Positions 10,261-48,867 of a stretch of DNA of 52,818 bases are shown here, in pieces. The stretch is from Lachnospiraceae bacterium (lineage in GTDB: Bacteria; Bacillota; Clostridia; Lachnospirales; Lachnospiraceae): NCBI GenBank assembly GCA_024405155.1, contig JAKSPC010000009.1, forward strand, positions 1 through 52,818, in the 5' to 3' direction. The notes under the pieces are model-generated. The model did no database searches, had not been told where the DNA came from, and worked only from the letters and a program-made list of their open reading frames with translations. The position numbers were made by a program, and so were the translations under genes. The number at the start of each line of letters is the position of its first letter. Position 1 is the stretch's first letter.

Positions 10261-11874
10261 ATGAGAAAGTCAACAAAAATTGCTGTAGTACTTGCAGCAG
10301 CAGCTCTTCTGGTAGCAGGTTTTGCTTTCACCACCCTTGCAAAGGGCTGGGTAAAGGAAGCTGAAGGCCTTTACTACTACGAAGATGAGTACGGCATGAA
10401 AGTCTACAACGAGTGGAAGAAGGATACCGATGCCAACGGCAAGGTAAACTACTACTATCTCGGCGATGACGGTTACATGGTAACCAACAGACTTGTTGAA
10501 TCTGACGGTTACTACTGGTGCGGCGCTGACGGTGCCAAGGTTGTAAGCCAGTGGGTAAAGGTTCCCGCAAGCGAAGACGAAGCTAACGATCTGGGCGTTG
10601 ATTACAGATGGTATCACTTCGGATCAACCGGCAAGGCTGATACCGGCAAGAAGACCCTTGACGGCAAGACCTACTTCCTTGATGCAGAAGGCAAGATGCT
10701 GTTCGGTTATGTTGATGGAACTACTTTCCAGATGACCAGCGACGTTGATGATGCTTATTCATCCAACAGCTACAACTATTACTGCGGTTCCAACGAAGAA
10801 GGTTGGGCACTTAAGTCTGACTGGAGAAAAGAGACCTCTGTTTCTAACAAGGGCGCTTATGAAGATGAGACCTCCTGGTGGGCTTTCTATACTTCTTCAG
10901 GTGCAAGGGCAACCGACAAGTCTGAAGGTTACCTTTGGAAGGGTGTTAGATACTACTTCAGCGCAAATGGCAAGATGAATACTGGTTGGGACACCACCTG
11001 CACTGATTCTACCGGCGCAAACGTATCCGTATACTATGGCGGCGCAGACGACGGCAAGAAGGTCAAGAAGGCTTGGGCATACATTAAGCCCGCAGCTGGC
11101 GGAGATGACAAGTTCTGGTACTTCTTCGACAATGCTGGTTATGCAATTCAGGAGTCCGGCGTTGCAAAGATCAACGGAAAATTCTATGCGTTTGGTGAGC
11201 CCGAGGATTACGCTTCCAAGATGCTCTCCGGCGTTGTAAAGGTCACCTTCGTTGTAGGCAAGAGCGACGTTGTTACCGAGGCTACCGGCGCTGTAAAGTA
11301 TGCTGATACCCTTAAGGGAATGACTCGTGATCAGTGGCTTGCAACTGACCTTAATGATGATAAGAAGGTTGGCACCACCGATTACATCTACTACTTCTCC
11401 GGTGATGAGGCTAATGATGGTTCCATGAAGAAGAACACAACCTTCTCACAGGAATTCATTGATGACACCTATACTCTCGCTGTTGGCAACGACGGCAGAC
11501 TTAAGGATGGCTACCTCTCCAAGAAGTACTACAGAAATGGTATTGAACTTACCGCTGCAGAGGATCTGAGATACGAAGTTGTATACGTATACGGTGCAAA
11601 CGGCAAGAAATATGCTCTTCTTGGCACCTCAGGTGCAGAAGTTGGCAAGAAGGCTACCGTTGCTGATGCTGATGGTTCTTACTACTATGTAGACGAAGAC
11701 GGAAAGATCTTCAAGGCTGATTCTTCACTGCTTAGCGCAGCTAAGGCTATCGCTTCCTGGAAGAAGGATAAGGGCGCTACTTCTATCAAGATCGAAGACT
11801 CCTACTGGAAAGTATCTGCAGAGCCCGAATCAAAGGGTTACAGCGCACTTAAACTCACCAGAGTAGCTGAATGA
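10261..11874 (+). CDS. Large choline-binding-repeat surface protein, gene 1
   Basis: A 537-residue exported protein. It has a signal peptide (MRKSTKIAVVLAAAALL..., cleavage near residue 27). Choline-binding-like repeats begin at once (GWVKEAEGLYYYED) and recur through the first 300 residues. The C-terminal half is conserved among all four paralogues (FSGDEANDGS, TFSQEF.DDTYTL, VADADGSYY, SSLLSAAKA). Its first 127 nt are identical to genes 2 and 3, and its first 197 nt are identical to gene 2. The codon choice (AAG, AAC, TAC, GGC, GCT, GTT) is unlike neighbouring island genes and suggests high expression. It is preceded by promoter, leader and ribosome binding site, and followed by a terminator and a DUF3990/HTH pair. 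Probably a major wall protein. Confidence 0.85.
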   Translation: MRKSTKIAVVLAAAALLVAGFAFTTLAKGWVKEAEGLYYYEDEYGMKVYNEWKKDTDANGKVNYYYLGDDGYMVTNRLVESDGYYWCGADGAKVVSQWVKVPASEDEANDLGVDYRWYHFGSTGKADTGKKTLDGKTYFLDAEGKMLFGYVDGTTFQMTSDVDDAYSSNSYNYYCGSNEEGWALKSDWRKETSVSNKGAYEDETSWWAFYTSSGARATDKSEGYLWKGVRYYFSANGKMNTGWDTTCTDSTGANVSVYYGGADDGKKVKKAWAYIKPAAGGDDKFWYFFDNAGYAIQESGVAKINGKFYAFGEPEDYASKMLSGVVKVTFVVGKSDVVTEATGAVKYADTLKGMTRDQWLATDLNDDKKVGTTDYIYYFSGDEANDGSMKKNTTFSQEFIDDTYTLAVGNDGRLKDGYLSKKYYRNGIELTAAEDLRYEVVYVYGANGKKYALLGTSGAEVGKKATVADADGSYYYVDEDGKIFKADSSLLSAAKAIASWKKDKGATSIKIEDSYWKVSAEPESKGYSALKLTRVAE

Positions 11875-11888
11875 TCGATTTCCAATTA

Positions 11889-11921
11889 AAAAGAAGCTCG
11901 GGTTTTCCGGGCTTCTTTTTT
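11889..11921 (+). terminator. Terminator after CBP gene 1
   Basis: AAGAAGC-T-CGGG pairs with CCGGGCTTCTT around a short T-rich loop, followed by a T-run. The same hairpin theme recurs at 14729, 18817, 21987 and 23128. Confidence 0.9.
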
Positions 11922-11967
11922 CGTGCTCATTTTTTCAAATAAGATTGCAGGAAAAGCCCGGATGGTG

Positions 11968-11996
11968 TTGTAAATATACTCCTATAGGAGTATAAT
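11968..11996 (+). promoter_or_regulatory. Promoter with embedded perfect 20-bp palindrome (operator A)
   Basis: TTGTAA (11968-11973), 17 bp, TATAAT (11991-11996). The perfect palindrome TATACTCCTATAGGAGTATA (11975-11994) fills the spacer and runs into the -10. It is a likely autoregulatory operator for the HTH protein at 12676. Confidence 0.85.
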
Positions 11997-12017
11997 CCTT
12001 GTGTAGGAGGATTGCGC

Positions 12018-12695
12018 ATGGCAATACGGATCTATCACGGATCGGAAAACAGAATCGAAAAACCGATCTATGGATACGGAAAGAAATACAATGACTACGG
12101 TGTCGGTTTCTATTGTACCGAATCCATTGACATGGCAAAGGAATGGGCTGTCGGCGCGGAGCGCAGCGGTTATGCCAATGTTTATGACCTTAATATGGAA
12201 GGACTTAGCGAACTGGATCTGAATGACACGGAGTATTGTATGCTGCATTGGCTGTCGGTGCTTCTTCAAAACCGTGAGTTTGAAGTATCCTCAGCACTTG
12301 CTCGCGAGGCTAAAGAATATCTTACATTGCATTTTTCTCCGACTTATCTTTCTGCCGATGTCATCCGCGGATACCGTGCCGACGACAGTTATTTTTCCTT
12401 TGCACAGGATTTTCTCAACGGCACCATTTCCTACCGTCAGCTGTCCGCAGCAATGCGCCTGGGAAAACTCGGACGGCAGATCGTGTTGAAAAGCGAGAAG
12501 GCGTTTTCACAGCTGACATTCGTTGATGCGGAGATCGCGAAAGCGGATGAATGGTTTGCAAAAAAACAGCTGCGTGACAAAACGGCAAGAAATGATTACT
12601 TCAGTTCCCGCATGAACAGGCGTGAACCGGGTGATCTGTATATCACGCATATCTTGGATGAGGAGATGAAAGCTGATGATGAACGCTTACGATAG
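12018..12695 (+). CDS. DUF3990 protein, putative ADP-ribosyltransferase-fold toxin (pair A)
   Basis: A 225-residue protein. It has the N-terminal motif IYHGS, then DYGVGFYCTE and AKEWAV, and a later conserved block (GYRADDSYFSFAQDFL, AMRLGKLGRQIVLKS). These are hallmarks of DUF3990, a family I place with ADP-ribosyltransferase-like folds (H in YHG, Y in GFY). The ATG at 12018 follows AGGAGG (12005-12010) at 7 nt; the in-frame TTG at 12012 is rejected. It overlaps the downstream HTH gene by 20 nt. The order toxin-like then HTH, tight overlap and palindromic operator suggest a toxin-antitoxin pair. No activity is proven by sequence. A second copy is at 18953. Confidence 0.75.
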   Translation: MAIRIYHGSENRIEKPIYGYGKKYNDYGVGFYCTESIDMAKEWAVGAERSGYANVYDLNMEGLSELDLNDTEYCMLHWLSVLLQNREFEVSSALAREAKEYLTLHFSPTYLSADVIRGYRADDSYFSFAQDFLNGTISYRQLSAAMRLGKLGRQIVLKSEKAFSQLTFVDAEIAKADEWFAKKQLRDKTARNDYFSSRMNRREPGDLYITHILDEEMKADDERLR

Positions 12696-13368
12696 AAACT
12701 ATCTGGAAAAAGCAAGGATCTCTCTTGGAAGAATGCTGGACTACGCTGTATATGATCTGAAATATGACCTTGCGGATTATTGGGACATGTTTCTTGCATC
12801 TCCGGTATCAAGGCAGTTTGAACGTGGAGAAGTATCCGTGCTTGCCGGAAAGTCCGGCGTGGAGCTGGCACTTATGGTAGCGGGAAAGGAACAGGAATAT
12901 ACTAAGCCGTTCTTTTCTGAGGGAAAAAGTGAGGAATACTGGACCGGCTGGGCACTGGCATATTATCAGTGGAAGACCTGCCTGTCTTTTGCACAGATCA
13001 CAGAACTGATCCCCATAAAAGAAATACAGGGTATGTACTCTCCATATCACGAGATGGATATCCGGCAGTTCTGTGACAGGGTGTCCGAAATCTATGCAGA
13101 AAGAAAACCGCATACGAATCTGAAACGAAAGCGCCTTGCGGTGGGACTTAGCCAGTCACAGCTTGCAAAGCTCACCGGTATCCCTGTAAGAACGATACAG
13201 CAATATGAGCAGGGGCAAAAAGACATCAACAAGGCAAGAGCAGAATATGTAATTAACTTATCACGCGCGCTATATTGCGACCCGCAGCTTCTGCTGGAAT
13301 ATAACGGGAATGGTTCGCATATGTTATTGACAATGGGTCGGTTAACCGATATAAATACTATAGTATAG
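12676..13368 (+). CDS. HTH (XRE) partner of DUF3990, putative antitoxin/regulator (pair A)
   Basis: A 230-residue protein. The N-terminal domain (about 1-130) carries a motif set shared with the protein at 19611 (LDYAVYD, FERGEVSVLAGKSGVELA, YWTGWALAYYQW, MYSPYHEMDI). The XRE helix-turn-helix lies at about 145-205 (LSQSQLAKLTGIPVRTIQQYEQGQKDINKA). Two ATGs are possible, 12676 and 12679, with GAGGAG (12660-12665) upstream. It probably represses its own operon through the 20-bp palindrome at 11975-11994 and neutralises the DUF3990 protein; both are inferences from gene order. The promoter of the next operon lies inside the end of this gene. Confidence 0.8.
   Translation: MMNAYDRNYLEKARISLGRMLDYAVYDLKYDLADYWDMFLASPVSRQFERGEVSVLAGKSGVELALMVAGKEQEYTKPFFSEGKSEEYWTGWALAYYQWKTCLSFAQITELIPIKEIQGMYSPYHEMDIRQFCDRVSEIYAERKPHTNLKRKRLAVGLSQSQLAKLTGIPVRTIQQYEQGQKDINKARAEYVINLSRALYCDPQLLLEYNGNGSHMLLTMGRLTDINTIV
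13327..13366 (+). promoter_or_regulatory. HipBA-type promoter with two palindromes inside the preceding gene
   Basis: TTGACA (13327-13332), 17 bp, TATAAA (13350-13355). TCGGTTAACCGA (13338-13349) fills the spacer and ATACTATAGTAT (13355-13366) follows the -10. The promoter lies almost wholly within the last codons of the HTH gene that ends at 13368. Confidence 0.75.
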
Positions 13369-13384
13369 CTAGATGGGGTGAGAT

Positions 13385-13837
13385 GTGAATCTTCAGACAA
13401 TGTTATCGAATAAACAAATGACGATGTATCGCTTATCCAAAGTAAGCGGTGTTGCCAAAACAACCGTTATTGATATATGTTCGGGAAAAAGTTCCATTGG
13501 AGGATGCAATGCGGATACCGTGCTGCGGTTATCGCAGGCTCTCGGATGCACAATGGAGGAACTGATGAAAATAGACAATGCAAATTATGATAAAAGCACC
13601 GGAAAACCGAAGGATAATTCTTATCTTGAAAAAGGCTTGCCGGAATATCTGTCACAATCTCTTGCCGCTATGATCGAGGCCTGGAAAATAGAAGACAGCG
13701 GAAAAAAAGATCTTCACTTTGATATACATTGGTGTGATCTGAACGCCGATATCAATTCAGCGGAAAACGGGCAGGAAATATCGAGTGGACAGGCATGGTA
13801 TTTACGTAAAAAATATCTACGAATGGAGGAGGATTGA
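13385..13837 (+). CDS. XRE-family protein, HipB-like antitoxin
   Basis: A 150-residue protein starting at GTG. The N-terminal helix-turn-helix (MTMYRLSKVSGVAKTTVIDICSGKSS, residues about 12-60) has the short-linker form usual in HipB-like partners of compact HipA kinases. The C-terminal half has no recognised fold. GGGGTGAG just upstream of the GTG acts as the ribosome binding site. Its stop codon overlaps the next start (TGATG at 13835-13839), indicating translational coupling with the kinase. It probably represses the promoter at 13327-13355 through the two adjacent palindromes. Confidence 0.8.
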   Translation: MNLQTMLSNKQMTMYRLSKVSGVAKTTVIDICSGKSSIGGCNADTVLRLSQALGCTMEELMKIDNANYDKSTGKPKDNSYLEKGLPEYLSQSLAAMIEAWKIEDSGKKDLHFDIHWCDLNADINSAENGQEISSGQAWYLRKKYLRMEED

Positions 13838-14715
13838 TGGACTTTACGAATTTGCCCAGAAGGAACAAGACCTATACCGGCGCGAATGGAAGCAAAATAT
13901 CCGTTGATCTAAACGGTGAAATATATATGCTCAAGTTTCCTGCCGTACCGTCTCGCAATAAAGAAATGAGTTATACCAACGGTTGTGTGTCTGAGTATCT
14001 GGGTTCTCAAATTTTCAATTTGTGTGGAATACCGGCGCAGGAAACGATGCTGGGAACCTTTACAATAAACGGGAAGGAAAAGATCGTCGTCGCCTGTAAG
14101 GATTTTACGACACCTGAAACCGTGTTGCAGGATTTTGCTTCGCTAAAAAACACAATTATTGACTCGGAGCATAACGGTTACGGAACAGAGCTTCCGGATA
14201 TTCTGACTGCCATTGACGAACAGCAGGCGATAGATCCCTACATACTGAAAGAGCGATTTTGGGATATGTTCATCATCGACGCGCTGATAGGCAACTGGGA
14301 CAGACACAACGGTAACTGGGGATTTCTATATAATACCCGCACCGATGAAATGCAGATCGCACCGGTCTATGATTGCGGAAGTTGTCTTTTCCCGCAGGCA
14401 GATGCGAAAATCATGGAAGTGACGCTGAATGACCAGACTGAAAAAGACCTCCGCATTTTCCAAATACCGACATCCGGTATCAAACAAAACGGTCAAAAAA
14501 TCAATTACTTTGATTTTATATCAGGTCATTCTGATAACGATTGCAGCAAGGCGTTAAAACGCGTTTTACCCGGAATCGATATGAGGAAAATCAATGAACT
14601 GATCGACAATACGCCGTATATCAATGATTTGCAAAAGTCGTTTTACAAGACAATGCTTTCAGAAAGAAAAGAGAAGATATTGGATACATCTTTAAGGCTG
14701 CTGAAAAAAGATTGA
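13837..14715 (+). CDS. HipA-like / CtkA-like Ser/Thr kinase toxin
   Basis: A 292-residue compact HipA-fold kinase without the extra N-terminal subdomain of long HipA proteins. Visible motifs are the ATP-binding lysine in YMLKFP (about residue 30), the catalytic loop IDALIGNWDRHNGNWGF (about 148-164) and the metal-binding APVYDCGSCL (about 177-186). HipA kinases phosphorylate a translation-related target and cause dormancy when free of their antitoxin. The ATG at 13837 follows GGAGGAGG (13825-13832); the TTG three bases earlier is rejected. It occupies the slot that holds CBP gene 2 in the second copy of the island unit. A terminator and a recombinase stub follow. Confidence 0.8.
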   Translation: MDFTNLPRRNKTYTGANGSKISVDLNGEIYMLKFPAVPSRNKEMSYTNGCVSEYLGSQIFNLCGIPAQETMLGTFTINGKEKIVVACKDFTTPETVLQDFASLKNTIIDSEHNGYGTELPDILTAIDEQQAIDPYILKERFWDMFIIDALIGNWDRHNGNWGFLYNTRTDEMQIAPVYDCGSCLFPQADAKIMEVTLNDQTEKDLRIFQIPTSGIKQNGQKINYFDFISGHSDNDCSKALKRVLPGIDMRKINELIDNTPYINDLQKSFYKTMLSERKEKILDTSLRLLKKD

Positions 14716-14728
14716 CATATACCGAAAA

Positions 14729-14757
14729 AGAAGCCCAGTTTCCGGGCTTCTTTTTTT
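14729..14757. terminator. Terminator between HipA-like gene and recombinase stub
   Basis: AAGAAGCCC / GGGCTTCTT stem with a short loop and a long T-run. It belongs to the same hairpin family as the CBP terminators. On the other strand it is less T-rich but symmetric. Confidence 0.9.
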
Positions 14758-14784
14758 GCGCTTGTTTTCAAAGACTGAGCGATC

Positions 14785-14857
14785 TTATTTCAACACGTTC
14801 TCTATCACTTCGGCAGTGATCTTTTGAGAATCAGCGAACATATGCGTATTGATGAGG
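14785..14857 (-). pseudogene. 3' stub of a tyrosine recombinase
   Basis: On the minus strand this reads (I)N-T-H-M-F-A-D-S-Q-K-I-T-A-E-V-I-E-N-V-L-K-stop. It aligns with the C-terminus of the recombinase ending at 22016 (HLFPDALRITAKVIDRVLK-stop). It stands in the same relation to a plus-strand gene and terminator as that recombinase does. The rest of the gene is gone: the homology breaks where group II intron sequence begins. Confident as a remnant; the exact break point is approximate. Confidence 0.75.
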
Positions 14858-14861
14858 ATGA

Positions 14862-15006
14862 GTAAACAAAGACTAATAAACTCCGGCTACTATGATTTAG
14901 CCGTTGCCTATCAGTCAGTGCATGTCAACTATTGAAAGCGCCGTATACCGAACGGTACGTACGGTGCTGTGAGAGGACGGCGGCTAATCACCGCCTCCTA
15001 CTCAAT
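14862..15006 (+). mobile_element. 5'-truncated group II intron (RT C-terminus, domains V-VI)
   Basis: The plus strand first reads a reverse transcriptase C-terminus (RLINSGYYDLAVAYQSVHVNY in two adjoining parts, stop at 14932-14934). Domain V follows at 14937-14968: AGCGCCGTA pairs fully with TACGGTGCT across a CG bulge and a TACC/GGTA upper stem. Domain VI follows at 14969-15006, a GGCGG/CCGCC hairpin ending in CTACTCAAT. All upstream intron sequence is missing. That is the pattern of incomplete target-primed reverse transcription or later deletion. Not functional. Confidence 0.75.
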
Positions 15007-15035
15007 CGCAAAACACTTATGAAACAGTCTCTGAC

Positions 15036-15257
15036 CTATGACCTCTGCTTTTTATATTCCTCATATTGGTTCATGGTGATGCCTATGATCTCACAGGCCT
15101 GCTCTGCACCCATATTAAGGGCGGCCATCAGTCGGTCAACTGCTTCGCCAGCGGCTCCCGCCGCTGCTTTTGCCGCTGCTTTTGCCGCTTTTGCTTCTGC
15201 CTTTGCGACTTCCTCTCTTGCGTATTCTTTTGCAAATTCTTCAACAATAGTACACAT
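15036..15257 (-). CDS. Small Ala/Lys/Glu-rich helical protein, probable C-terminal remnant
   Basis: A 73-residue reading frame starting MCTIVEEFAKEYAREEVAK. It contains an Ala/Lys/Glu helix and ends in EIIGITMNQYEEYKKQRS. It looks like the C-terminal tail of Rpn/PD-(D/E)XK transposase-like proteins, which often end in a charged helix plus a short HTH-like element. The frame stays open upstream, but there it enters the end of the TnpB insertion sequence, so the original 5' part was probably removed by that insertion. A weak GGAG lies 11 nt before the ATG. Expression is doubtful. Confidence 0.45.
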   Translation of the reverse strand: MCTIVEEFAKEYAREEVAKAEAKAAKAAAKAAAGAAGEAVDRLMAALNMGAEQACEIIGITMNQYEEYKKQRS

Positions 15258-15329
15258 GCCGCCTACTTCTCCTTTCCCCGGGACTTTGAACTGCTTCTTT
15301 CTCGCTGAGATCAGCGGAAACCTCGTGAC

Positions 15330-15460
15330 ATACTCCCACCACTTAATGCTTCGCATTTGAAGTGGGGGCTTCTCGCTCGATGACGCCATCGCGTCAAGCA
15401 TAAACGAGCTATCCCCGCGTGTCCCGCGGTTTATGCTGCTTTCACAGGGCAAGCAGCCGG
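15330..15460 (-). ncRNA. Predicted omegaRNA (reRNA) of TnpB
   Basis: The 3' end of tnpB and the structured right end form a continuous minus-strand segment with nested hairpins (GCATAAACCGCGGG / CTCGTTTATGC and the right-end stem). In studied TnpB systems this region yields the guide RNA, whose guide is the sequence just outside the right end (here below about 15325). The limits are inferred. Confidence 0.45.
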
Positions 15461-16578
15461 AGCCCTTCTTCTCTGATATTTATCGCTGCATTCACGTCCC
15501 TGTCATGATGCGTCCCGCAGCAGGGGCATGTCCATTCTCTTTCCTGCAAGGTGAGGTCTTCTTTCTTGTACCCGCACACGCTGCAGAGCTTCGAGGATGC
15601 AAACCACTTGTCTGTCGTGATGAGCTTCTTCCCCTTGCTTTCTGCCTTATACGAAAGGAATGTGCGGAACTGACCGAAGGCGTTGTCGTTTGTTGCCTTT
15701 GCCAGGTGGAGCCCCTGTGCCATCTCTTTGTAATCGATGTCCTCCACACAGATGACATCGTAACTGCCGATAAGGCGCTTTGACTCCTTGTGCTGCCAGT
15801 CTTTTCTCTGATCCTTAAGCTTTTCGTGGACCAGAGCGACTCTTCTTTTCTGCTTCAGGTAATTGCAGGAGCCCTTCTTCATTTTGGAAAGTCTTCTCTG
15901 TTCCCGGGAAAGCTTCTCTTCCGTGTTCCGGTAGAAGTGCGGCATCTCCGCCTTTCTTCCCTCACTGTCCACGTAGAATTCACCGCTGGAATAATCCAGA
16001 CCGAGCGCCCTGATGTTCTGTGCATCCGGCGTGATCGTTTGTGTTGCCGGTCCTTCTGTGTATTCTGTCAGAATGGAAGCGTAGTACTTCCCCGAGGCTT
16101 CTCTGCTTACGGTCACAGACTTGATGGCGTGATCTTCCGCCATCTTTCTGTGAAGCTTTATCCTTACTTCTCCCACCTTCGGCAGCCGGAGCGTTCCGTT
16201 CTTTCTGCTTTCATTACTTTCTGTGATACGGATGTTTCCGTTCACCATGTTGGTGGTGAAACTATGCTTCGGATCCTTTTTACTCTTGAACTTCGGATAT
16301 CCCACCGCTTTGTTCCGAAAGAAGTTCCGGAACGCCGTTTCCAGCTGCAGCTGTGCATTGGAAAGGGCCAGGCTGTCCACTTCTTTAAGCCATTCATAGT
16401 CTGCCTTCAGATGGGCCGGCGTGTTGCGAAGAGACTTTCCGGTCTCCTCGTAGTGCTTTTTCTTTTCCTCAAGGAGTGTGTTATATACAAAACGCGTACA
16501 GCCGAACGCTTTTGCAAACAGATCCTGCTGTTCGGCATTCGGATAGATTCGATATTTGTAGGCGATGTTCTTCTTCAT
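15442..16578 (-). CDS. tnpB: TnpB RNA-guided nuclease / OrfB transposon protein
   Basis: A 378-residue TnpB. It has an N-terminal OrfB helix-turn-helix region (MKKNIAYKYRIYPNAEQQ, about 1-45) and a RuvC-like core with D in LGLDYSSG, E in VICVEDIDY and D in THHDRDVNAA. A four-cysteine zinc ribbon (CSVCGYK...CPCCG) sits before the last Asp. All three catalytic acids appear intact. The start at 16578 begins the canonical TnpB N-terminus; the upstream open frame lies in the IS end. TnpB nicks or cuts DNA next to a transposon-associated motif under omegaRNA guidance and favours retention of the element. The long plus-strand frame over it is a shadow. Confidence 0.9.
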   Translation of the reverse strand: MKKNIAYKYRIYPNAEQQDLFAKAFGCTRFVYNTLLEEKKKHYEETGKSLRNTPAHLKADYEWLKEVDSLALSNAQLQLETAFRNFFRNKAVGYPKFKSKKDPKHSFTTNMVNGNIRITESNESRKNGTLRLPKVGEVRIKLHRKMAEDHAIKSVTVSREASGKYYASILTEYTEGPATQTITPDAQNIRALGLDYSSGEFYVDSEGRKAEMPHFYRNTEEKLSREQRRLSKMKKGSCNYLKQKRRVALVHEKLKDQRKDWQHKESKRLIGSYDVICVEDIDYKEMAQGLHLAKATNDNAFGQFRTFLSYKAESKGKKLITTDKWFASSKLCSVCGYKKEDLTLQEREWTCPCCGTHHDRDVNAAINIREEGLRLLAL

Positions 16579-16965
16579 GATTCCTATTATATCGAAACCC
16601 TGTCCAATAATCCGGACTTTCAAATGGGGCATCCCGGCTTCCCGGGTATTCCGGGAGAAGTTCTGTTTGACAACCGCGGCTTCCCAGGTTTCACTCGGGT
16701 AGAATATCCGCCGGCAATTCATCCCCCACCTGTAGAGGAAGGGGACTTCTTGCCGATCATGTTAAAATCGGTAACCATAAATTCCTTTCCGGATACCGGC
16801 AAGTCACACTTGGATTATAACAAAGAAGCAATTAAATACAAAGTGTATTTTTGCAAAATGATTTTTCTGCGAACAGGCGGGCAGAGTAAATCAACTGTAG
16901 AAGAAAGACATTGAGGGATTTTTCGGAAATCCCATCGCGGCATGTACACCTCACAGAAGAAAACA

Positions 16966-17008
16966 GCTCTCAGGCTACATTCCGCAAAAAAGCCTGTAGC
17001 CTGAGAGC
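16966..17008. repeat. Perfect 14-bp inverted repeat
   Basis: GCTCTCAGGCTACA (16966-16979) and TGTAGCCTGAGAGC (16995-17008) are separated by 15 nt. No T-run follows on the plus strand. The gap 16579-17258 otherwise holds the IS left end, a possible CBP 5' remnant (17088-17128) and the promoter of the next gene. Confidence 0.8.
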
Positions 17009-17087
17009 GAAAATCCCCTTCCAGGGCCAAAAGTTATGTTTCGTATCCTGATAACAATTTTCCCCGCATACGTCTTACATGTTTTTA

Positions 17088-17128
17088 CGTCATGCGCTTG
17101 CAGCAGCAGTTCTTCTGGCAGCAGGAAA
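17088..17128 (+). pseudogene. Possible CBP signal-peptide remnant
   Basis: CTTGCAGCAGCAGTTCTTCT and the bases that follow (GGCAGCAGG) match 29 nt of the CBP gene 1 signal-peptide region with two differences. The match is GCAG-rich, so chance is possible. A CBP 3' remnant lies on the far side of the ATPase gene (18703-18792), which makes a former CBP locus plausible. Confidence 0.4.
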
Positions 17129-17131
17129 GTA

Positions 17132-17159
17132 TTGATTTCAAAAGATTATCGAGTATAAT
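17132..17159 (+). promoter_or_regulatory. Promoter upstream of ATPase copy B
   Basis: TTGATT (17132-17137), 16 bp, TATAAT (17154-17159). The leader contains ATCAGCG and CGCTGAT as an inverted pair (about 17165 and 17203), a possible operator. A second TATAAT at 17238-17243 is close to the start codon. Confidence 0.55.
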
Positions 17160-17258
17160 ATTGTTATCAGCGATTTATAAACAACATTTAACGCATGATC
17201 CGCTGATATCAAAATTAATTATGCGCTAACAGCGGAATATAATCGCTCCGGAGGCTTC

Positions 17259-18680: not shown

Positions 18681-18702
18681 AGCCTACTGTTCAGATTCAT
18701 CA

Positions 18703-18842
18703 GTATCAGGATCGGAGACTCCAACTGGAGCGTATCTGCAGAGATCAAATCAAAAGGTTACAGGAGCTTAAACTCACCAGAGCAGCTGACTGATCGATTT
18801 CCCATGTTAAAAGAAGACCGGATTTTCCCCGGGCTTTTTTTT
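18703..18842 (+). pseudogene. 3' remnant of a CBP gene plus its terminator
   Basis: The sequence aligns base by base, with scattered changes, to the last ~90 nt of CBP gene 1, its stop region (CTGATCGATTTCC) and its terminator (degenerate hairpin CCGG...CCCGG with T-run, 18817-18842). As in copy A, it is followed by a DUF3990/HTH pair. The rest of this CBP is lost and its place is taken by the ATPase gene. Confidence 0.85.
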
Positions 18843-18896
18843 GTAAAGCCAAACTATTTAAGCGTAAAACGATACGTATCAGCCTTCAGAAAACGA

Positions 18897-18925: not shown

Positions 18926-18952
18926 ACAGATGGAAAGGAAATGGAAACAACT

Positions 18953-20249: not shown

Positions 20250-20309
20250 CAGGGCATATACCGCTGATAAAACCTTGCAATCAGATTCGCGGTAATTTGT
20301 CGCAGTTTT

Positions 20310-21968
20310 ATGAGAAAGTCAACAAAAATTGCTGTAGTACTTGCAGCAGCAGCTCTTCTGGTAGCAGGTTTTGCTTTCACCACCCTTGCAAAGGGCTGGG
20401 TAAAGGAAGCTGAAGGCCTTTACTACTACGAAGATGAGTACGGCATGAAAGTCTACAACGAGTGGAAGAAGGATACCGATGCCAACGGCAAGGTAAACTA
20501 CTACTACCTCGGCGATGACGGCTACATGGTAACCGATTCAATTGTAGAGTATAACGATGAGAAGTACTGGGTAGGCGCTGACGGTGCAAAGGTTACCGAG
20601 CAGTGGATCAAGGTTCCTGCTGATCAGGAAGACATCGACAACTATGACGTAGACTACAGATGGTACTACTTCCAGAAGTCTAACGGTAAGGCTTACAAGG
20701 GCGTCAAGAAGGATATTGAAGGAAACACCTACTTCTTCAATGCTGAGGGTAAGATGCTGTTCGGCTATGTAAACGGCGATGACTTCACAATGGAAACTGA
20801 TGTTGCCAAGGCTTATGATGGCAATTCTTACAAGTATTTCTGCGGAAGCAACGATGAAGGTAAGGCTCTGAAGTCCGAGTGGAGAAAAGAGACCAGCACC
20901 ACCGACAACGGCGCATATGAGACCGATACCAGCTGGTGGGCATTCTACCAGTCAAACGGTAAGAGAGCAGACAGCACTCTTGCTAATGGTGCTCTTTGGA
21001 AGAGTCAGAGATATTATTTCGATCCTGACGGCAAGATGCTTAAGGGATGGCAGACTGCTACTGTTGACACCGCAGATAAGGAAGACGACGTTGCTTACTA
21101 TTTCGGCGGTGCTGACGATGGTAAGAAGGTTAAGAAAGCTTGGGCATACGTTGTTCCGCAGTCTGGTGATGACAAGGATAACGAGACCAAGAGATGGTTC
21201 TACTTCGACAATACCGGTGCTGCCCTTAAGAAGAACGGTGTTCAGAAGATCAACGGTAAGTTCTACGCTTTCGCAGCTGCAGAGGACAATGCTTCCAAGA
21301 TGCTTGCTGGTACAGTTAAACTCACATTCGCAGTTGCTGCAGATAGTTCTTCAATCGTAACTGATGCAACGGCTGCAGAAAAGATCGATCTTTCCAAGAA
21401 GACTCTTGATGAGTGGCTTGCTGAGGGACCGAATCCGGAGGGACTTGTAGGCGCTAATTATGTTGTTTACTACTTCTCAGGCGATGAAGCTAACGACGGT
21501 TCTCTGAAGAAGAACGTAACCTTCTCACAGGAATTCAAGGATGACACCTATACTCTTGCTGTTGGCAATGATGGTGCTCTGAAGGATGGCTACATGAAGA
21601 AGGAGAAGAAGTACTACAGATATGGTTATCTGCTTGCTGCTTCTGAGGATACGAGATACGAAGTTAAGGACGTATACTTCAATGGCTCCAAGTTTGCACT
21701 TCTTGGTGTTGCTGGTACCGAAGTTACCACTGGTACTGTAGTTGATGCTGATGGTTCTTACTACTATGTAGTAAAGGCTACTGCAACTGAAGCTCAGAAG
21801 ATCTATAAGGCTGAATCTTCACTCCTCAGCGCTGCAAAGGTTATTTCCTCCTTCAAAAAGGACGGCAAGGGCGCAAAGTGCTCTATCGACGGCGTTGATT
21901 ACAAGGTAACTGTTGATGATACTAAGGTTGATTCAATCGGTTACATTATACTTGGTCTTTCACAGTAA
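20310..21968 (+). CDS. Large choline-binding-repeat surface protein, gene 2 (probably silent)
   Basis: A 552-residue paralogue of gene 1 with the same signal peptide, repeats and conserved C-terminal half. Its first 197 nt are identical to gene 1, and 225 nt match with two synonymous changes; beyond that it diverges clearly. The identity begins at the start codon. Upstream it shows TTGTCGCAGTTTT directly before the ATG, with no ribosome binding site and no convincing promoter, so it may be poorly translated or silent. It sits in the slot between a DUF3990/HTH pair and a terminator plus tyrosine recombinase on the other strand. It lies in inverted orientation to gene 3 across that recombinase. 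Confidence 0.8.
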   Translation: MRKSTKIAVVLAAAALLVAGFAFTTLAKGWVKEAEGLYYYEDEYGMKVYNEWKKDTDANGKVNYYYLGDDGYMVTDSIVEYNDEKYWVGADGAKVTEQWIKVPADQEDIDNYDVDYRWYYFQKSNGKAYKGVKKDIEGNTYFFNAEGKMLFGYVNGDDFTMETDVAKAYDGNSYKYFCGSNDEGKALKSEWRKETSTTDNGAYETDTSWWAFYQSNGKRADSTLANGALWKSQRYYFDPDGKMLKGWQTATVDTADKEDDVAYYFGGADDGKKVKKAWAYVVPQSGDDKDNETKRWFYFDNTGAALKKNGVQKINGKFYAFAAAEDNASKMLAGTVKLTFAVAADSSSIVTDATAAEKIDLSKKTLDEWLAEGPNPEGLVGANYVVYYFSGDEANDGSLKKNVTFSQEFKDDTYTLAVGNDGALKDGYMKKEKKYYRYGYLLAASEDTRYEVKDVYFNGSKFALLGVAGTEVTTGTVVDADGSYYYVVKATATEAQKIYKAESSLLSAAKVISSFKKDGKGAKCSIDGVDYKVTVDDTKVDSIGYIILGLSQ

Positions 21969-21986
21969 TTTGTAACGTCAAAGAAA

Positions 21987-22017
21987 AGGAGCCCGGGATT
22001 TTTCCGGGCTTCTTTTT
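21987..22017. terminator. Shared terminator between CBP gene 2 and recombinase 1
   Basis: AAGGAGCCCGGG / CCGGGCTTCTT with a T-rich loop and a T-run on the plus strand. It lies between the two convergent genes, overlapping the stop of the recombinase. Confidence 0.85.
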
Positions 22018-23011
22018 ATTTCAGCACTCTATCTATCACCTTGGCTGTGATACGTAGGGCGTCAGGGAATAGATGTATGTAAAACTGCTCGGTAACAAGA
22101 GCAGATGAATGTCCCAGATGTTCTGAAACCACTTTCATGGGTACACCTTCGTTGATCAGTATGGAGGCGTTAGCATGGCGCAGGTCGTGGATATGCATTC
22201 CGGAAAGTCCGGACTGTTTCATCATCTTCCGGAAAGTGTTATTAAGATAGTCGCCATTCATTTTTCCGCATTTTTTATTCATAAATACTGGGAGAAGATT
22301 GGAAAACTCTATTCTATTGGCTGCACATAATTGCTCGGCATAGCATTTCTGGTCGTTCAGGATTTGAACTGCTTTATCTCCAAGAGCTACTGTACGGACT
22401 GATGTTGCCGATTTGGGCGTGCCGGTATAAGTTTTTCCTGCAGAGCGAAAAACAGTCCGCGAAATTTTCACTTCTCTTTTCTTAAAATCAATATCTTTCC
22501 AGATAAGGCCGACCAGTTCGCCGCGCCGCAGACCTGTCAAAAGCAGGAATTTAACAGCTCTGCCAACTTGCTTGTTTTTTAGGTCGTCACAAAGTTTAAT
22601 GATCTTTCTGCATTCGCGAATATCCAGAAAGGGCCTAGATGTGCAGTCAATTCTGACAGGAGTACTGGAGACTACCGGGTTTTCATTTACGATATGCTTT
22701 TTTACTGCAATAGTAAAGACAGCCGAGAGAACCATGCGGATCTGGTTGACGGTGGATGCCTTCAAAACTCTTCCGGTTTTCGGAGATCCGTTTTCGCGGA
22801 GGGAAGCCAACAGGTTGTCAACTGTCACAGGCGAAATGTCACTCAGTTTAGTATCCCCCAAGTAGGGAATAACAAAATCTGTCAGCAAAAGACGGTAGTT
22901 AAAGATCGTATGGTCTTTCAGTTTCTGCGGTGCTGACACCTCCAGGTACCAGCTGGCCAGTTCGGAAAAAGTATTCTCCTCGGTCAGAATGTTCTGAATC
23001 ACAAGTTCCAT
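22016..23011 (-). CDS. Tyrosine recombinase / integrase 1
   Basis: A 331-residue tyrosine recombinase. It has an N-terminal SAM-like core-binding domain (about 10-110) and a catalytic domain with R in TGLRRGEL, K in the TPKSATS beta-hairpin region, HDLRHANAS (H-x-x-R), LGHSSALVTEQFY (second H and nucleophile Y). The catalytic set is complete. The start at 23011 has AAAAGGAGAA just upstream; the longer frame to 23062 lacks this. It stands between two convergent CBP genes. About half its residues are shared with recombinase 2 at 46145, also beside a CBP. It may invert or exchange CBP sequences, or may be the integrase of a decayed element. Confidence 0.9.
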   Translation of the reverse strand: MELVIQNILTEENTFSELASWYLEVSAPQKLKDHTIFNYRLLLTDFVIPYLGDTKLSDISPVTVDNLLASLRENGSPKTGRVLKASTVNQIRMVLSAVFTIAVKKHIVNENPVVSSTPVRIDCTSRPFLDIRECRKIIKLCDDLKNKQVGRAVKFLLLTGLRRGELVGLIWKDIDFKKREVKISRTVFRSAGKTYTGTPKSATSVRTVALGDKAVQILNDQKCYAEQLCAANRIEFSNLLPVFMNKKCGKMNGDYLNNTFRKMMKQSGLSGMHIHDLRHANASILINEGVPMKVVSEHLGHSSALVTEQFYIHLFPDALRITAKVIDRVLK

Positions 23012-23127
23012 GATGTTTCTCCTTTTATGGTTTAATAATGTCATTATAGAAGGAGATTGCATATCATAGGAAAAGATTCGCTTTTTCCAAATCTGGTTGA
23101 TTCACTGATTAGAAAACAAGCGTAAAA

Positions 23128-23155: not shown

Positions 23156-23173
23156 TCTGCTTAAGCGATCAGA

Positions 23174-24781
23174 TTATTTGTGTACTCTACCATTTTCAAG
23201 AGTGATCTTGTAAATGTTGGTAGCACCTACCTGAGTGGTAACTACATCATAATCATAACCTTCAGCGGTAACGGTTGTCTTTCCATTGTAAACAGCGCTT
23301 GCTGCCTGGCCGGGAGCTACAAGTGAAGAATCAGCCTTGTAGATCTTGCTATCCTTAACAGTATAGTAAGAACCGTCAGCGTCTGCTACATAACCCTTGG
23401 TCGTCTCGGTACCAGCTACGGATACGAGCACATACTTGCTTGCCCAATCCTCTGCTGTCTCATCCCAGAACCAAACATCCTTGATCTCATATCTGTAATC
23501 TTCGGAAGCCTTTACAAGAATACCATTCTTGTAGTATCTCTTGGAGATGTAACCGTTGCTCAGCTTGCCTTCCTTATCAACATTAAGGGTATAATCATCG
23601 TCAAGGAAGCTCTGTACAAAGGTAACGTTCTTCTTCAGAGAACCATCATTAGCTTCATCGCCTGAGAAGTAGTAGATGTCAGTATAAATATCTTCCATCC
23701 ACTTCTCTGCAGTGATCTCAGCGGGCTTCTTGGGAAGAGTAGCGGTAGCTTCGATTGCCTCAGGAAGAGTCTTGCCGTCTTCTACGGTAACCTTTACGAG
23801 ACCGGAAAGCATCTTGGAAGCATTGTCAAGCTCTTCTGCGAATGCATAGAAACGACCGTTGATTCTTGCAACGCCGCCCTTTTCAAACTTAAGAGCAAAA
23901 CCGTTGTTCTGGAACCAGAACCATCTCTTGGTGCTGTCATCCTTATCCTTGCCGGACTTCGGAACTGCGTATACCCAGCCCTTCTTAACCATCTTACCAT
24001 CATCAGCGCCACCGAAGTACTCTGACCAGGTTGCAGCGGGATCGGTAGTGTTAGCAGTCTGCCAACCGCTAAGCATCCCTCCGTCGTCGTCGAAATAGTA
24101 TCTTACGCCGCCGATAAGAACACCGTTTACAGCGTTGGAAGCGTCAGCCTTCTCACCAGTGGACTTGTAGTAGGTCCAGAAGGAGCTCTCAACTTCGTAA
24201 GCGTACTTGTTTTCAACGTCGGTCTCTTTCTTCCACTCGGACTTGCGAGCCCAACCTTCATCATTGGTGCCGCAGAAGAACTTGTAAGAAGCGTCGAAAT
24301 CCTTCTTCATCTGGAAGTTGGTGCCATCCACGTAGCCGTACAGCATCTTGCCGTTTGCATCGAAGAAGTAGGTCTTGCCATCAATGGTCTTCTTACCATT
24401 GGTCGGTGCCTTGTATGCACGTCCCTTGGAATCGAAGTAGTACCATCTGTACTCAACTTCAAGTTCTTCCTGGTCCATCTCATCTGCAGGAACCTGTACC
24501 CACTGATTGATAACCTTTGCGCCGTCAGCGCCGCACCAGTAGTAGTTGCCTTCGAAATCAACAAGCTTGTTAGCTACCATGTAGCCATCTTCGCCAAGAT
24601 AGTAGTAATTAGCACCATCTTTCTCCCAGGTCATGTACTCCTTCATTCCGTAAGCATCTTCGTAGTAGTAAAGGCCTTCAGCTTCCTTTACCCAGCCCTT
24701 TGCAAGGGTGGTGAAAGCAAAACCTGCTACCAGAAGAGCTGCTGCTGCAAGTACTACAGCAATTTTTGTTGACTTTCTCAT
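23174..24781 (-). CDS. Large choline-binding-repeat surface protein, gene 3
   Basis: A 535-residue paralogue with the same signal peptide and the same conserved second half (YYFSGDEANDGSLKKNVTF, YTLNVDKEGKLSNGY, SSLVAPGQAASA). The first 127 nt, from the ATG, are identical to genes 1 and 2, then divergence is abrupt (GAAGATG then CTTACGG). The upstream minus-strand sequence has AAGAGGA about 13 nt before the ATG, a weak ribosome binding site inside the palindrome AAGAGG-A-CCTCTT. No clear promoter is seen. It shares a short divergent region with the KAP gene. Recombinase 1 lies downstream on the same strand, the same order as gene 4 and recombinase 2. Confidence 0.85.
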   Translation of the reverse strand: MRKSTKIAVVLAAAALLVAGFAFTTLAKGWVKEAEGLYYYEDAYGMKEYMTWEKDGANYYYLGEDGYMVANKLVDFEGNYYWCGADGAKVINQWVQVPADEMDQEELEVEYRWYYFDSKGRAYKAPTNGKKTIDGKTYFFDANGKMLYGYVDGTNFQMKKDFDASYKFFCGTNDEGWARKSEWKKETDVENKYAYEVESSFWTYYKSTGEKADASNAVNGVLIGGVRYYFDDDGGMLSGWQTANTTDPAATWSEYFGGADDGKMVKKGWVYAVPKSGKDKDDSTKRWFWFQNNGFALKFEKGGVARINGRFYAFAEELDNASKMLSGLVKVTVEDGKTLPEAIEATATLPKKPAEITAEKWMEDIYTDIYYFSGDEANDGSLKKNVTFVQSFLDDDYTLNVDKEGKLSNGYISKRYYKNGILVKASEDYRYEIKDVWFWDETAEDWASKYVLVSVAGTETTKGYVADADGSYYTVKDSKIYKADSSLVAPGQAASAVYNGKTTVTAEGYDYDVVTTQVGATNIYKITLENGRVHK

Positions 24782-24803
24782 AAAAATAAGAGGTCCTCTT
24801 TTG

Positions 24804-43562: not shown

Positions 43563-43902
43563 CAGACTGATAAAGAAAAACTCTGATTTGGTCCGTCGGA
43601 TAATTGAAGCCCCGAGAAAAACAGACAGACTATTATCCAATAATACCGATTCAGTCCGTCGAAAATCAGGCGGACAAGGGAAAACAGACAGACCATTATG
43701 AGAAAACATTGATTTAGTCTGATGATAAAGAAAAGTTGCTGCAGACCGAATGGGAATTTTGTCGAATTAGTCCGCTCAAAAAGAAGAAAAGCCTGAAACG
43801 GATGCGGACTAAAACCTTTGTTTAAGGAAATCGGTCCGCCCAAAAAGAAGAAAGACCTGAAACGGATGCGGACTAAACCTCTGTTTAAAGAAACCAGTCC
43901 GC
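43563..43902. repeat. Second array of alternating inverted half-sites, ~63-bp period
   Basis: The gap 43412-43926 contains no convincing gene. Two interleaved half-site series are present: CAGACT/CGGACT type starting at 43563, 43626, 43689, 43742, 43805 and 43869, and (A/G)GTCCG type starting at 43590, 43653, 43716, 43769, 43833 and 43896. Steps within each series are 63, 63, 53, 63-64 and 63-64 bp, so exactly one unit is 10 bp short in both series. The last two units (43769-43902) are the best conserved. The layout mirrors the array at 185-585 but with a different core. The function is unknown. Confidence 0.75.
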
Positions 43903-46144: not shown

Positions 46145-47149
46145 TCACCTGTGAGCCAGCAGTGCTTCATCTATGACGGAGGCGGTGATGCGCCGGGAGC
46201 CGGCAAAGAGATGTGTGTAGAAATCCTCCGTGACTTTGGACGAAGTATGTCCAAGGTGTTCGGAAACGATCTTCATAGGGACACCTTCATTGATCAGGAT
46301 GGATGCATTGGCATGTCTCAAGTCATGAATATGCAGTCCCGGCATGCCGGCGCTCTTCATCATTTCCCGGAAACAGTTGTTTAAATAATCGCCGCTCATA
46401 AAGCCGCCTTTCCGTCCCGTAAAAACAGAGCGCGTGGCGATCCAGTCTCTGCCGGCCGCTTTCCGTAATTGCTCCACTTCTTGTTTCTGCTCTTTGAGTA
46501 TCAGAAGTGACATGGAATTCAGGGGGACGACCCGGTGAGAGGATGGCGTCTTGGGACTGTCCAGAACGTTTTCTTTTCCGATCCGGTACAGCGTGCGCCG
46601 CACCGTCAGTTCTGCCTTATCAAAATCGATATCGTCCCAGTAGAGACCGATCAGTTCTCCCCTCCTGAGGCCTGTGAACAGAAGGAGTTTGATGGCTCTT
46701 CCCACCTGTTCGTTGGAAAGCCTGTCACACATGCGGATCACCTGCCTGCAGTTGTCCAGATCCAGAAATAGGCGCTCCTTTGGTTCCATCCGGATCTTTG
46801 TGGCATCAGTCACGGGATTCTTTATCAGGATGCCTTTTCGCACGGCAGTCGTGAAAACGGCGGAAAGTGCCATGCGGATCTGGCGGATCGTGGCAGAAGA
46901 AAGACGGCGGCCTTTCGTGAGAGCCCCTTCGGTGATCAGAGCTGCAAAAAGATTGTCCAGCCGGATGACAGATATGTCACAGAGCCGCATTTCCCCGATG
47001 TAGGGGAGCACATAGATCTGCAGAAGATTCCGGTTGTTGTAAATGGTATGTTCTTTTAATGTCTGCGGCGCTACAACGGTATAGTACCACCGGACCAGCT
47101 CCGAGAGTGTGTTTTCGGCGGTAATATCCTCTGTCAGTTTAAAACGCAT
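46145..47149 (-). CDS. Tyrosine recombinase / integrase 2
   Basis: A 334-residue homologue of recombinase 1 (22016). The N-terminal core-binding domain includes LKEHTIYNNRNLLQIYVLPYIGEMRLCDIS (in parts). The catalytic residues are complete: R in TGLRRGEL, K in SPKTPSSHR, HDLRHANAS, LGHTSSKVTEDFY. The start at 47149 has GGAGGAGGAAG just before it; the longer frame to 47179 is rejected. It lies 92 bp downstream of CBP gene 4 on the same strand, with a terminator between, the same order as gene 3 and recombinase 1. Its target site is unknown. Confidence 0.9.
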   Translation of the reverse strand: MRFKLTEDITAENTLSELVRWYYTVVAPQTLKEHTIYNNRNLLQIYVLPYIGEMRLCDISVIRLDNLFAALITEGALTKGRRLSSATIRQIRMALSAVFTTAVRKGILIKNPVTDATKIRMEPKERLFLDLDNCRQVIRMCDRLSNEQVGRAIKLLLFTGLRRGELIGLYWDDIDFDKAELTVRRTLYRIGKENVLDSPKTPSSHRVVPLNSMSLLILKEQKQEVEQLRKAAGRDWIATRSVFTGRKGGFMSGDYLNNCFREMMKSAGMPGLHIHDLRHANASILINEGVPMKIVSEHLGHTSSKVTEDFYTHLFAGSRRITASVIDEALLAHR

Positions 47150-47198
47150 AATTCTTCCTCCTCCACTAACAGATACCACGAAGAATTGAAATTAAGCT

Positions 47199-47227
47199 GA
47201 AAAAAGGGAGCCCGCTGCCGGACTCCC
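47199..47227 (-). terminator. Terminator of CBP gene 4
   Basis: On the minus strand GGGAG-T-CC / GG-G-CTCCC with a short loop is followed by six T. It lies between gene 4 and recombinase 2. Confidence 0.8.
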
Positions 47228-47241
47228 TGAAAAACGGGAAA

Positions 47242-48867
47242 TTACTGTTTCACCAGTTTGATGATGTAAATGCTGTCATCGATCGCGCTCTTTACAGTCT
47301 CGATCTTATAAGTCACGGAATCGTAAGTGACAGTTGTCTTTCCGTTGTTAACGGCACTTGCTGCCTGTGCGGGAGCAACCAGGGAGGAATCCGCGATGTA
47401 GATCACGCCTTCTTTTACCACATAGTAGCTGCCGTCGGAATCTGCAACGTATCCCTTTGTCACTTCTGTACCGGCTACGGAAAGAAGTGCATAATTCTTG
47501 CTGTTGTATCCGTAGGTCTTAACGATCTCATATCTGAGTTCATCGGAGGCTTTAAGAAGGTAACCGTTTCTGTAATATCTCTTTGCAGAGGAGTTGTAAC
47601 CGTCGGTAAGCTTTCCTGTCTTGTCTACATTCAGTGTGTAGGTGTCATCCAGGAATTCCTGTGAGAAGGTAACGCTCTTCTTTAAGGAACCATCGTTTGC
47701 CTCATCGCCGGAGAAGTAGTAAATGCTGGAATATTTTCTGCTTTCATCGGCAAGCCAGTCAGCAAGCTTGACAGCAGAAGTGGAAACCTTCACTGCATCG
47801 GTAGCATCAAGAATGCTGTCCGCTTTTTCATCAAAGGTAAGAGCTACCATACCGGAAAGCATCTTGGAGGCGTTGTCATCATCCTCGGGTGCCTTGAATG
47901 CATAGAACTTTCCATTGATCTTGTATACGCCGGCCTTGTAAATGGCGGCACCGGTATTGTCAAACCAGAACCATCTCTTGGTACCGTCGATATAGTCAGC
48001 GCCGGCAGTGGATTCGGGCGTTGTGTATACCCAGCCCTTCTTTACCAGTTTACCGTCATCGGAACCGCCGAAATACTGTGCGACGGGAATCGTGGCTTCG
48101 CCGTCGGAAATGCTTGCGGTATTCCAGCCGGTCTTCATGAAACCTTCTGAGGTAAAGTAGTATCTTACGCCGCCGGCAAGGTAGCCGTTCTCATTGGCAA
48201 CAGCTCTGATGCCGGAAGACTGGTACCAGGTCCAGTACGTATCGCTGTCATCATAAGCGGTGGAGCTTCCATCCAGAGTCTCCTTGACCCATTCGGACTT
48301 TCTGACATAACCGTCTTCATTGGAACCGCAGTAATAGGTGTATGAGGAGCCTGCGGTAAGAGCCACACTGTTATCAGCGGTCATCTGATGCGCGGCAGCA
48401 TCCACGTAGCCGAACAGCATCTTGCCGTTTTCATCGAAGAAATAGTATTTGCCGTCGATCTGCTTCTTGGAGGAGTTTCCTTTCGCTGCTTTTCCGTTGG
48501 AATCAAACCAGTACCATCTGAAATCCACGCCGAGTTCTTCCTGATCCACCTCGTCTGCCGGGACCCGGACCCACTGACTGGTGACCTTGGCGCCGTCAGC
48601 ACCGCACCAGTAATAGTTGCCGTCAGTCTCCACGAGAGTGTTGGTCACCATGTAGCCGTCTTCGCCAAGATAGTAGTAGTTAACGGTGCCATCAGCATTC
48701 GTGTCTTTTTCCCATGTCATGTACTCCCTGTTGCCATAGGAATCCTCGTAGTAATAAAGGCCTTCCGCTTCCTTTACCCAGCCCTTTGCAAGGGTGGTGA
48801 ATGCGAATCCGGCTACGAGGAGTGCTGCTGCTGTGAGGATCACAGCAAGTTTTGTGTTCTTTCTCAT
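47242..48867 (-). CDS. Large choline-binding-repeat surface protein, gene 4
   Basis: A 541-residue paralogue of genes 1-3: signal peptide MRKNTKLAVILTAAALL, repeats from GWVKEAEGLYYYED, and the conserved C-terminal half (FSGDEANDGSLKKSVTFSQEF, YVADSDGSYYVV, SSLVAPAQAASAV). At DNA level its 5' end is clearly diverged from the identical block of genes 1-3, though a stretch around the signal cleavage site is conserved. It is GC-richer, closer to the flanking genome. The start is placed at 48867 by homology; ATG 48885 adds five residues. No ribosome binding site is seen before either. Possibly the ancestral or a silent copy. Confidence 0.85.
   Translation of the reverse strand: MRKNTKLAVILTAAALLVAGFAFTTLAKGWVKEAEGLYYYEDSYGNREYMTWEKDTNADGTVNYYYLGEDGYMVTNTLVETDGNYYWCGADGAKVTSQWVRVPADEVDQEELGVDFRWYWFDSNGKAAKGNSSKKQIDGKYYFFDENGKMLFGYVDAAAHQMTADNSVALTAGSSYTYYCGSNEDGYVRKSEWVKETLDGSSTAYDDSDTYWTWYQSSGIRAVANENGYLAGGVRYYFTSEGFMKTGWNTASISDGEATIPVAQYFGGSDDGKLVKKGWVYTTPESTAGADYIDGTKRWFWFDNTGAAIYKAGVYKINGKFYAFKAPEDDDNASKMLSGMVALTFDEKADSILDATDAVKVSTSAVKLADWLADESRKYSSIYYFSGDEANDGSLKKSVTFSQEFLDDTYTLNVDKTGKLTDGYNSSAKRYYRNGYLLKASDELRYEIVKTYGYNSKNYALLSVAGTEVTKGYVADSDGSYYVVKEGVIYIADSSLVAPAQAASAVNNGKTTVTYDSVTYKIETVKSAIDDSIYIIKLVKQ

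Follow-up and report, generated by a model that had tools for sequence, protein, structure and literature searches.

The window analyzed here (52,818 nucleotides; bases 1-52818 of contig C46) belongs to a 2.03-Mb Lachnospiraceae genome in 46 contigs and carries four paralogous genes for putative wall proteins of the choline-binding-repeat type (c1 to c4), together with two tyrosine recombinase genes (r1 and r2; Table 1). A first-pass annotation of this DNA had proposed that the bodies of these wall proteins are exchanged behind one expressed start with the participation of the recombinases. We describe the anatomy of the locus and compare it with related loci from genome collections holding one genome per species.

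Table 1. Features of the wall-protein locus (positions are those of the window)
Feature	Position	Strand	Remarks
c1, choline-binding-repeat-type wall protein	10261..11874	+	537-aa ORF (open reading frame); presumed expressed copy
c2, paralogue without leader	20310..21968	+	552-aa ORF; presumed silent (no promoter-like pair, no Shine-Dalgarno match)
c3, paralogue without leader	23174..24781	-	535-aa ORF; presumed silent (no promoter-like pair; Shine-Dalgarno-like AAAGAGG present)
c4, more diverged paralogue without leader	47242..48867	-	541 aa; may have its own weak promoter (49000-48971)
r1, tyrosine recombinase	22016..23062	-	between convergent c2 and c3, directly downstream of c3
r2, tyrosine recombinase	46145..47179	-	directly downstream of c4; 53% identical to r1
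5' block of c1	10259..10457	+	first 197 nt of the gene, with the 2 nt preceding it, identical to c2; first 127 nt also identical to c3
5' block of c2	20308..20506	+	
5' block of c3	24655..24783	-	2 nt upstream and the first 127 nt of the gene; orientation opposite to that of the c1 and c2 blocks
Promoter-like pair of c1, TTGAAT-17-TATTAT	10161..10189	+	consensus match only (9/12); position conserved in relatives
Conserved 5' leader and Shine-Dalgarno sequence of c1, AAAAGGAGAGTGCACTTATT	10241..10260	+	
Small choline-binding-repeat protein upstream of c1	7231..8454	+	a comparable gene precedes the family gene in several relatives

The ORFs of c1 to c4 are all intact and align over their full length, with protein identities of 57 to 66% between c1 and c2 and between these two and c3 and c4. 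Four paralogues of 535 to 552 residues with a common architecture, as the first-pass annotation had described, are present. The start of c4 was placed at the homologous ATG (position 48867), the mechanically called ORF beginning at 48885. In the Pfam scan of the wall proteins, which covered c2, this protein scored 44.4 bits against PF19127 (Choline_bind_3; cut-off, 27) and 26.9 bits against PF19085 (Choline_bind_2), just under the cut-off of 27, and showed no enzyme domain. The repeats match choline- and glucan-binding-type repeats in the PDB, the matches in NCBIfam lying below the cut-off, and by inspection the N-terminus is a signal peptide. Repeat units of this type are what the family shares with the choline-binding-repeat proteins and related repeat proteins matched in Pfam and the PDB. 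These features suggest that c1 to c4 encode wall proteins of the choline-binding type, for which choline binding itself is predicted.

Three of the paralogues (c1, c2 and c3) share a 5' block that begins abruptly at the start codon. Counted as exact matches, with the downstream part measured from the A of the ATG, the identical runs extend over 2 nt upstream and 197 nt downstream for c1/c2, 2 and 127 nt for c1/c3, 4 and 127 nt for c2/c3, and 2 and 9 nt for c1/c4. The upstream DNA of the copies is unrelated (2 to 11 of 25 positions match in the five pairs compared). The earlier observations of 127 identical nucleotides in three genes, 197 in genes 1 and 2, and unrelated upstream sequences thus held in the exact comparison. 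Over the first 126 nt, c4 differs from c1 by 19 mismatches, with 12 synonymous codon changes; because c4 tolerates these 12 synonymous changes, the perfect identity of c1 to c3 reflects a likeness at the DNA level, beyond protein constraint alone. Similar patches also occur further downstream in c1 and c2.

Among the four copies, the family leader AAAAGGAGAGTGCACTTATT is found only at c1. Within 25 nt upstream of the start codon, the best match to AAGGAGG covers 6 of 7 positions at c1, 3 at c2, 6 at c3 (AAAGAGG) and 4 at c4. A promoter scan of about 200 nt upstream of each copy returned two promoter-like pairs for c1 (0.8 expected), none for c2, none for c3 and one weak pair for c4 (0.4 expected). 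At the position that matches the c1 pair, G014, a genome of the same genus, has TTGATA-17-TATCAT (by inspection). The leader is strongly conserved in most loci of the wider family described below, which suggests a high level of expression. A 16-pair hairpin, scored as terminator-like on the + strand, lies upstream of c4 (window 48950-48985).

Both r1 and r2 match PF00589 and a SAM-like N-domain, and their alignment retains the residues of the tyrosine recombinase catalytic motif (R...HxxR...H...Y). The arrangement noted in the first-pass annotation (i.e., a recombinase directly downstream of genes 3 and 4, with gene 2 converging on recombinase 1) was confirmed by these matches. Within the genus, the recombinase family of the window is associated with wall-protein genes: in 25 same-genus genomes, r1 has four matches at E <1e-40 (r1 itself, r2, and one each in G014 and G021), all of which lie at most 2.4 kb from a gene of the wall-protein family.

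A search with c2 (E <=0.001) gave matches in 22 of 41 genomes, all within the genus of the window (25 genomes, its own included), some of these matches being short repeat stretches only. At several same-genus family loci, the small choline-binding gene likewise precedes the family gene, and the leader is similar. In G014, two copies are alike from TTATG onward and near-identical over about 450 nt; one of them has a leader similar to that of c1, and the other is leaderless and adjoins a recombinase that is 52% identical to r2. RUG11135 (L120) likewise has a copy with a leader and a leaderless copy, with a tyrosine recombinase between them. A break at the start codon is seen in the window and in two other genomes. 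Another congener (G012; L068) has a second copy that lacks both start and signal peptide, setting in abruptly at what is codon 66 of the first copy, and that stands beside a recombinase. Several same-genus draft contigs end inside a family gene, as expected of an assembly fork and also of any repeat. One further locus (G000:C1:114746-116170; L033:6706-9180) contains an 825-aa ORF with a family body as its C-terminal part and a different, longer N-terminal part.

A scan of genome contigs with c2 alone returned no relative, and an alignment-based scan of named genomes did find relatives; 80 of its 272 matches were kept, giving 76 loci. These loci include Hungatella, Enterocloster-type clostridia, Lacrimispora and Lachnoanaerobaculum. 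In many of these relatives, the spacer between the -35 and -10 hexamers is filled by a site such as ATAATTTCCC-TTATAG-GAAGTATAAT, and the likeness of the copies without a -35 sets in at a point inside the -35 hexamer or immediately behind it. As in the window, the identity between the promoter-bearing copy and the others starts abruptly at a shared start region. A loose promoter-site rule fit 73 of 94 parsed copies (21 did not). When the site pattern was searched in 12 genomes, 24 matches were found at 0 to 1 mismatches, of which 23 lay at family genes by coordinates. The remaining one, an exact match in G049 (C40), lies beside an unrelated gene and was taken as a chance match. The copies of one Enterocloster citroniae genome (L066) have differing cores (ATATAC, TTATCC and TTACTA), which could define separate exchange groups.

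The -35 hexamer is distributed among the copies in a one-per-genome pattern. In a first set of 17 genomes with at least two site-bearing copies (45 copies), exactly one copy has the TTG of the -35 in 16 genomes; the exception, D16-56, lacks the TTG in both copies seen and is represented by a short contig. The TTG is present in two genomes in which one copy each was seen and in 20 of 26 further singly seen copies. Two more multicopy genomes, G427 (one of two copies with a -35) and G433 (one of three), came from searching 17 genomes of the E. citroniae genus for the site pattern, and both fit. In the combined set, exactly one copy has the TTG in 18 of 19 multicopy genomes (50 copies), a number that none of 300000 label shuffles reached (maximum, 16). 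An invertible promoter was considered and rejected, since the repeats of the pairs inspected enclose whole genes and leave the -35 outside. One 4.5-kb contig (L128) has identical flanks in opposite orientation at both ends, either as an assembly artefact or as a real inverted pair.

Different bodies stand behind matching expression flanks in several groups of relatives. Two -35 copies, Hungatella hathewayi L063:20431 and Hungatella effluvii L070:10001, have flanks that are 86.5% identical over 297 nt and bodies that are 48% identical. The body of the former has its counterpart, at 93% identity, in the effluvii copy L107:2464, and that of the latter, at 76% identity, in the hathewayi copy L063:10001; neither of these two copies has a -35. 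Five -35 loci of the Lacrimispora type, selected because their flanks are 94 to 99% identical, form 10 pairs, in nine of which the bodies are only 53 to 64% identical (96% in the remaining one); the DNA after the gene is mostly unmatched in register, with short or shifted exceptions. Similarly, L093/L111 combine 96% identical flanks with 65% identical bodies, and L097/L110 combine 94% with 60 to 61%.

Recombinases also accompany the wider family. In nine of the 12 genomes searched, at least 17 Phage_integrase matches lie within 5 kb of family genes versus 1.1 expected (the pairs are not independent), and at least six of the nine have a recombinase at this distance, above expectation. In 14 of the 18 relative loci with a tyrosine recombinase, the enzyme belongs to a single family (about 285 aa) and is often paired; two members from L062 are nearest to XerA/XerC-type models, with scores far below the cut-offs of these models. 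In the window, G014, G021, L120 and L068, the place of this family is taken by longer integrase-like proteins.

Recombinational switching of bodies behind one expressed start is, in our view, the best explanation of these observations, with a probability of roughly 0.7. In this scheme, c1 would be the expression site, and c2, c3 and c4 would be alternative bodies stored without the conserved leader and presumably silent. Site-specific recombination, most likely catalyzed by r1 and/or r2, would swap the DNA downstream of the start region, with a crossover that in the window lineage probably falls on the start codon or immediately inside it. Inversion between the c1 block and the inverted block of c3 or c4, or excision or exchange between the direct c1 and c2 blocks, could place a new body behind the c1 promoter. 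The swapped body would gain the promoter, ribosome site and signal peptide of c1, and the cells of one clone would then display differing cell wall proteins. We expect such a switch to be reversible within clones, and its benefit may be evasion of phages, antibodies or other surface-directed attack.

A more general formulation, which we regard as moderately probable, is that the family represents a widespread form of surface variation in the Lachnospiraceae. Here the recombination site would lie inside the 17-base promoter spacer, so that one fixed -35 with its A-rich upstream DNA picks among bodies that each carry their own -10. Dedicated Xer-like recombinases, often paired, would perform the exchange; in the window lineage, another recombinase family would have taken over, and the breakpoint would have come to lie at the start codon.

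Several observations weigh against this interpretation. The core of the original proposal (exchange behind one expressed start, with tyrosine recombinases involved) is supported by the relatives, but no crossover site was recognized in the window: among the palindromes searched for around the shared start, none had a core that was convincing or conserved. The promoter-site pattern of many relatives has no match in the window genome at up to 2 mismatches (the site form of G005/G006 was not searched for). In L120, the identity begins 6 nt before the ATG and the exact run breaks after 13 nt. The silence of the leaderless copies is put in question by the weak promoter-like pair of c4, by Shine-Dalgarno-like sequences at c3 and at the leaderless copies of G014 and L120, and by the position of c2, which starts 60 nt behind a co-oriented gene and could be cotranscribed with it. 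In 8 of the 18 one-promoter genomes, no other copy seen has the core of the promoter copy, and for two of these eight (G043 and G050) the whole genomes were searched; if identical cores are required, exchange in these eight would need incoming DNA, because a partner core is lacking. In addition, r1 and r2 are PF14659-type integrase-like proteins; at E 1e-40, 87 of 392 genomes of the order have relatives of these integrases, irrespective of neighborhood, and distant ones occur on 7 viral contigs. For 58 of the 76 relative loci, the DNA covered contains no tyrosine recombinase, and G041, G044 and G047 have no Phage_integrase within 5 kb of family genes among the matches listed. Finally, not every locus shows exchange. 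At a second recombinase-linked locus (L122 to L125), flanks (94 to 95%), bodies (98 to 99%) and downstream DNA (94 to 97%) all match in six of six pairs, and in the clostridioforme group G045 and G427 have the same body (95%) behind an 86% identical flank, the other members differing.

The 5' ends might also have been evened out by homologous recombination or gene conversion acting on diverged duplicates, with the recombinases as bystanders. The 127 to 197 nt of identity exceed what the core of a tyrosine recombinase site needs, and both the downstream patches shared by c1 and c2 and the long near-identical stretch of the G014 copies speak for it. We nevertheless consider this explanation unlikely, given an upstream boundary that in three genomes (two from a single genus) stays nearly constant at 2 to 6 nt before the ATG, the excess of recombinases near family genes in at least six of nine genomes, and the Lacrimispora-type loci, in which the DNA after the gene is mostly unmatched in register, short or shifted pieces excepted. 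Still less probable is the explanation that the recombinases are integrases of mobile elements that attach at the 5' end of wall-protein genes, each insertion bringing a 3' body and duplicating the 5' block, so that the variation would be evolutionary rather than reversible. The c1 and c2 blocks are indeed direct repeats 10 kb apart around accessory genes (i.e., HTH, HipA-like and candidate defence genes), the PF14659 type of r1 and r2 and the Tn916 N-domain of the L120 recombinase suit an integrase, as do the frequency of related proteins in the order and on viral contigs, and the partner cores missing from eight relatives fit as well. However, the c3 and c4 blocks run opposite to that of c1, no PF00589 match lies between the c1 and c2 blocks, and in other genomes headless and leaderless copies adjoin recombinases.

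Four ordinary paralogues, each with its own promoter and a conserved signal peptide start, would account for the four intact ORFs, the Shine-Dalgarno-like sequence at c3 and the weak pair at c4. This we judge very improbable: the roughly 200 nt upstream of c2 and of c3 contain no promoter-like pair, the leader is absent from c2 to c4, c1 to c3 are identical where c4 has its 12 synonymous changes, and the relatives show the one-promoter pattern.

The surroundings of the wall-protein genes resemble a defence island. Candidate defence models of PADLOC matched at 8609-26088 and 38675-39727, between and around the copies (PDC-S27 twice, PDC-M42A, a weak M42B, PDC-M03A [HipA-like protein], PDC-S49 and PDC-S05 [RhuM protein]). 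Such a setting is compatible with a role in escaping surface-directed attack, of which it is no proof. At gathering scores, the only Rfam match was a group II intron domain (48 bits; 14936-15006, + strand), located between c1 and c2. Two adjoining 64-nt repeats, 81% identical, lie at window 43765-43892. On viral contigs, 68 loci match the wall-protein family, all of them partially; the longest match spans 216 of 529 residues.

The principle of such switching is known from other surface proteins. In the sap S-layer system of Campylobacter fetus, a single promoter is combined with several homologues that are silent and whose 5' region is conserved, and inversion changes the expressed body; the process is RecA-linked and uses long conserved 5' regions, and is not known to involve a tyrosine recombinase beside each copy. 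The Lachnospiraceae loci resemble sap in combining one promoter with homologues that share a conserved 5' region and differ from it in the recombinases that stand beside some copies. Switches of the kind represented by the Clostridioides difficile cell wall protein CwpV flip a small promoter-bearing segment ON or OFF, whereas in the present loci the -35 keeps its place and entire bodies would be moved. Site-specific inversion controls CwpV, and RecV inverts some such sites (PMC5903667); in that article, "choline" and "lachno" each occur 0 times. The closest parallel is the S-layer of Lactobacillus acidophilus, in which slpA and slpB, one in an expression site and the other silent and promoterless, are reported to be interchanged by inversion of a chromosomal segment (Boot et al. 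1996 as cited in PMC6015585). The loci described here would share with it an expression site, promoterless silent copies and interchange by inversion. One promoter-bearing copy per genome is what 18 of 19 multicopy relatives show, and in the window the leader belongs to c1, a promoter-like pair being absent before c2 and c3 and weak before c4. Unlike slpA/slpB, the Lachnospiraceae loci encode a different protein family, and in many relatives there are 2 to 5 copies seen per genome, with recombinases beside some of them, and a site between the -35 and -10 such that the other copies keep their -10, the window breaking at the start codon instead.

The first-pass annotation knew of no described system that unites choline-binding proteins with recombinases. 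Our literature search, by title and the start of abstracts, likewise found no description, a weak negative given that most subscription papers and all bioRxiv preprints lie outside its coverage. The principle was already established by slpA/slpB. The split-promoter site, the fixed single -35, the protein family, the number of bodies, the breadth across the Lachnospiraceae and the start codon variant set the present loci apart and appear to be new.

If this interpretation is correct, cultured gut Hungatella, Enterocloster and Lacrimispora, as well as many uncultured Lachnospiraceae, would switch the identity of a wall protein inside clones, with a bearing on phage sensitivity, immune recognition and strain typing. 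With its promoter split across a recombination site, such a locus would constitute a compact selector of one among several bodies, which is testable in cultured type strains.

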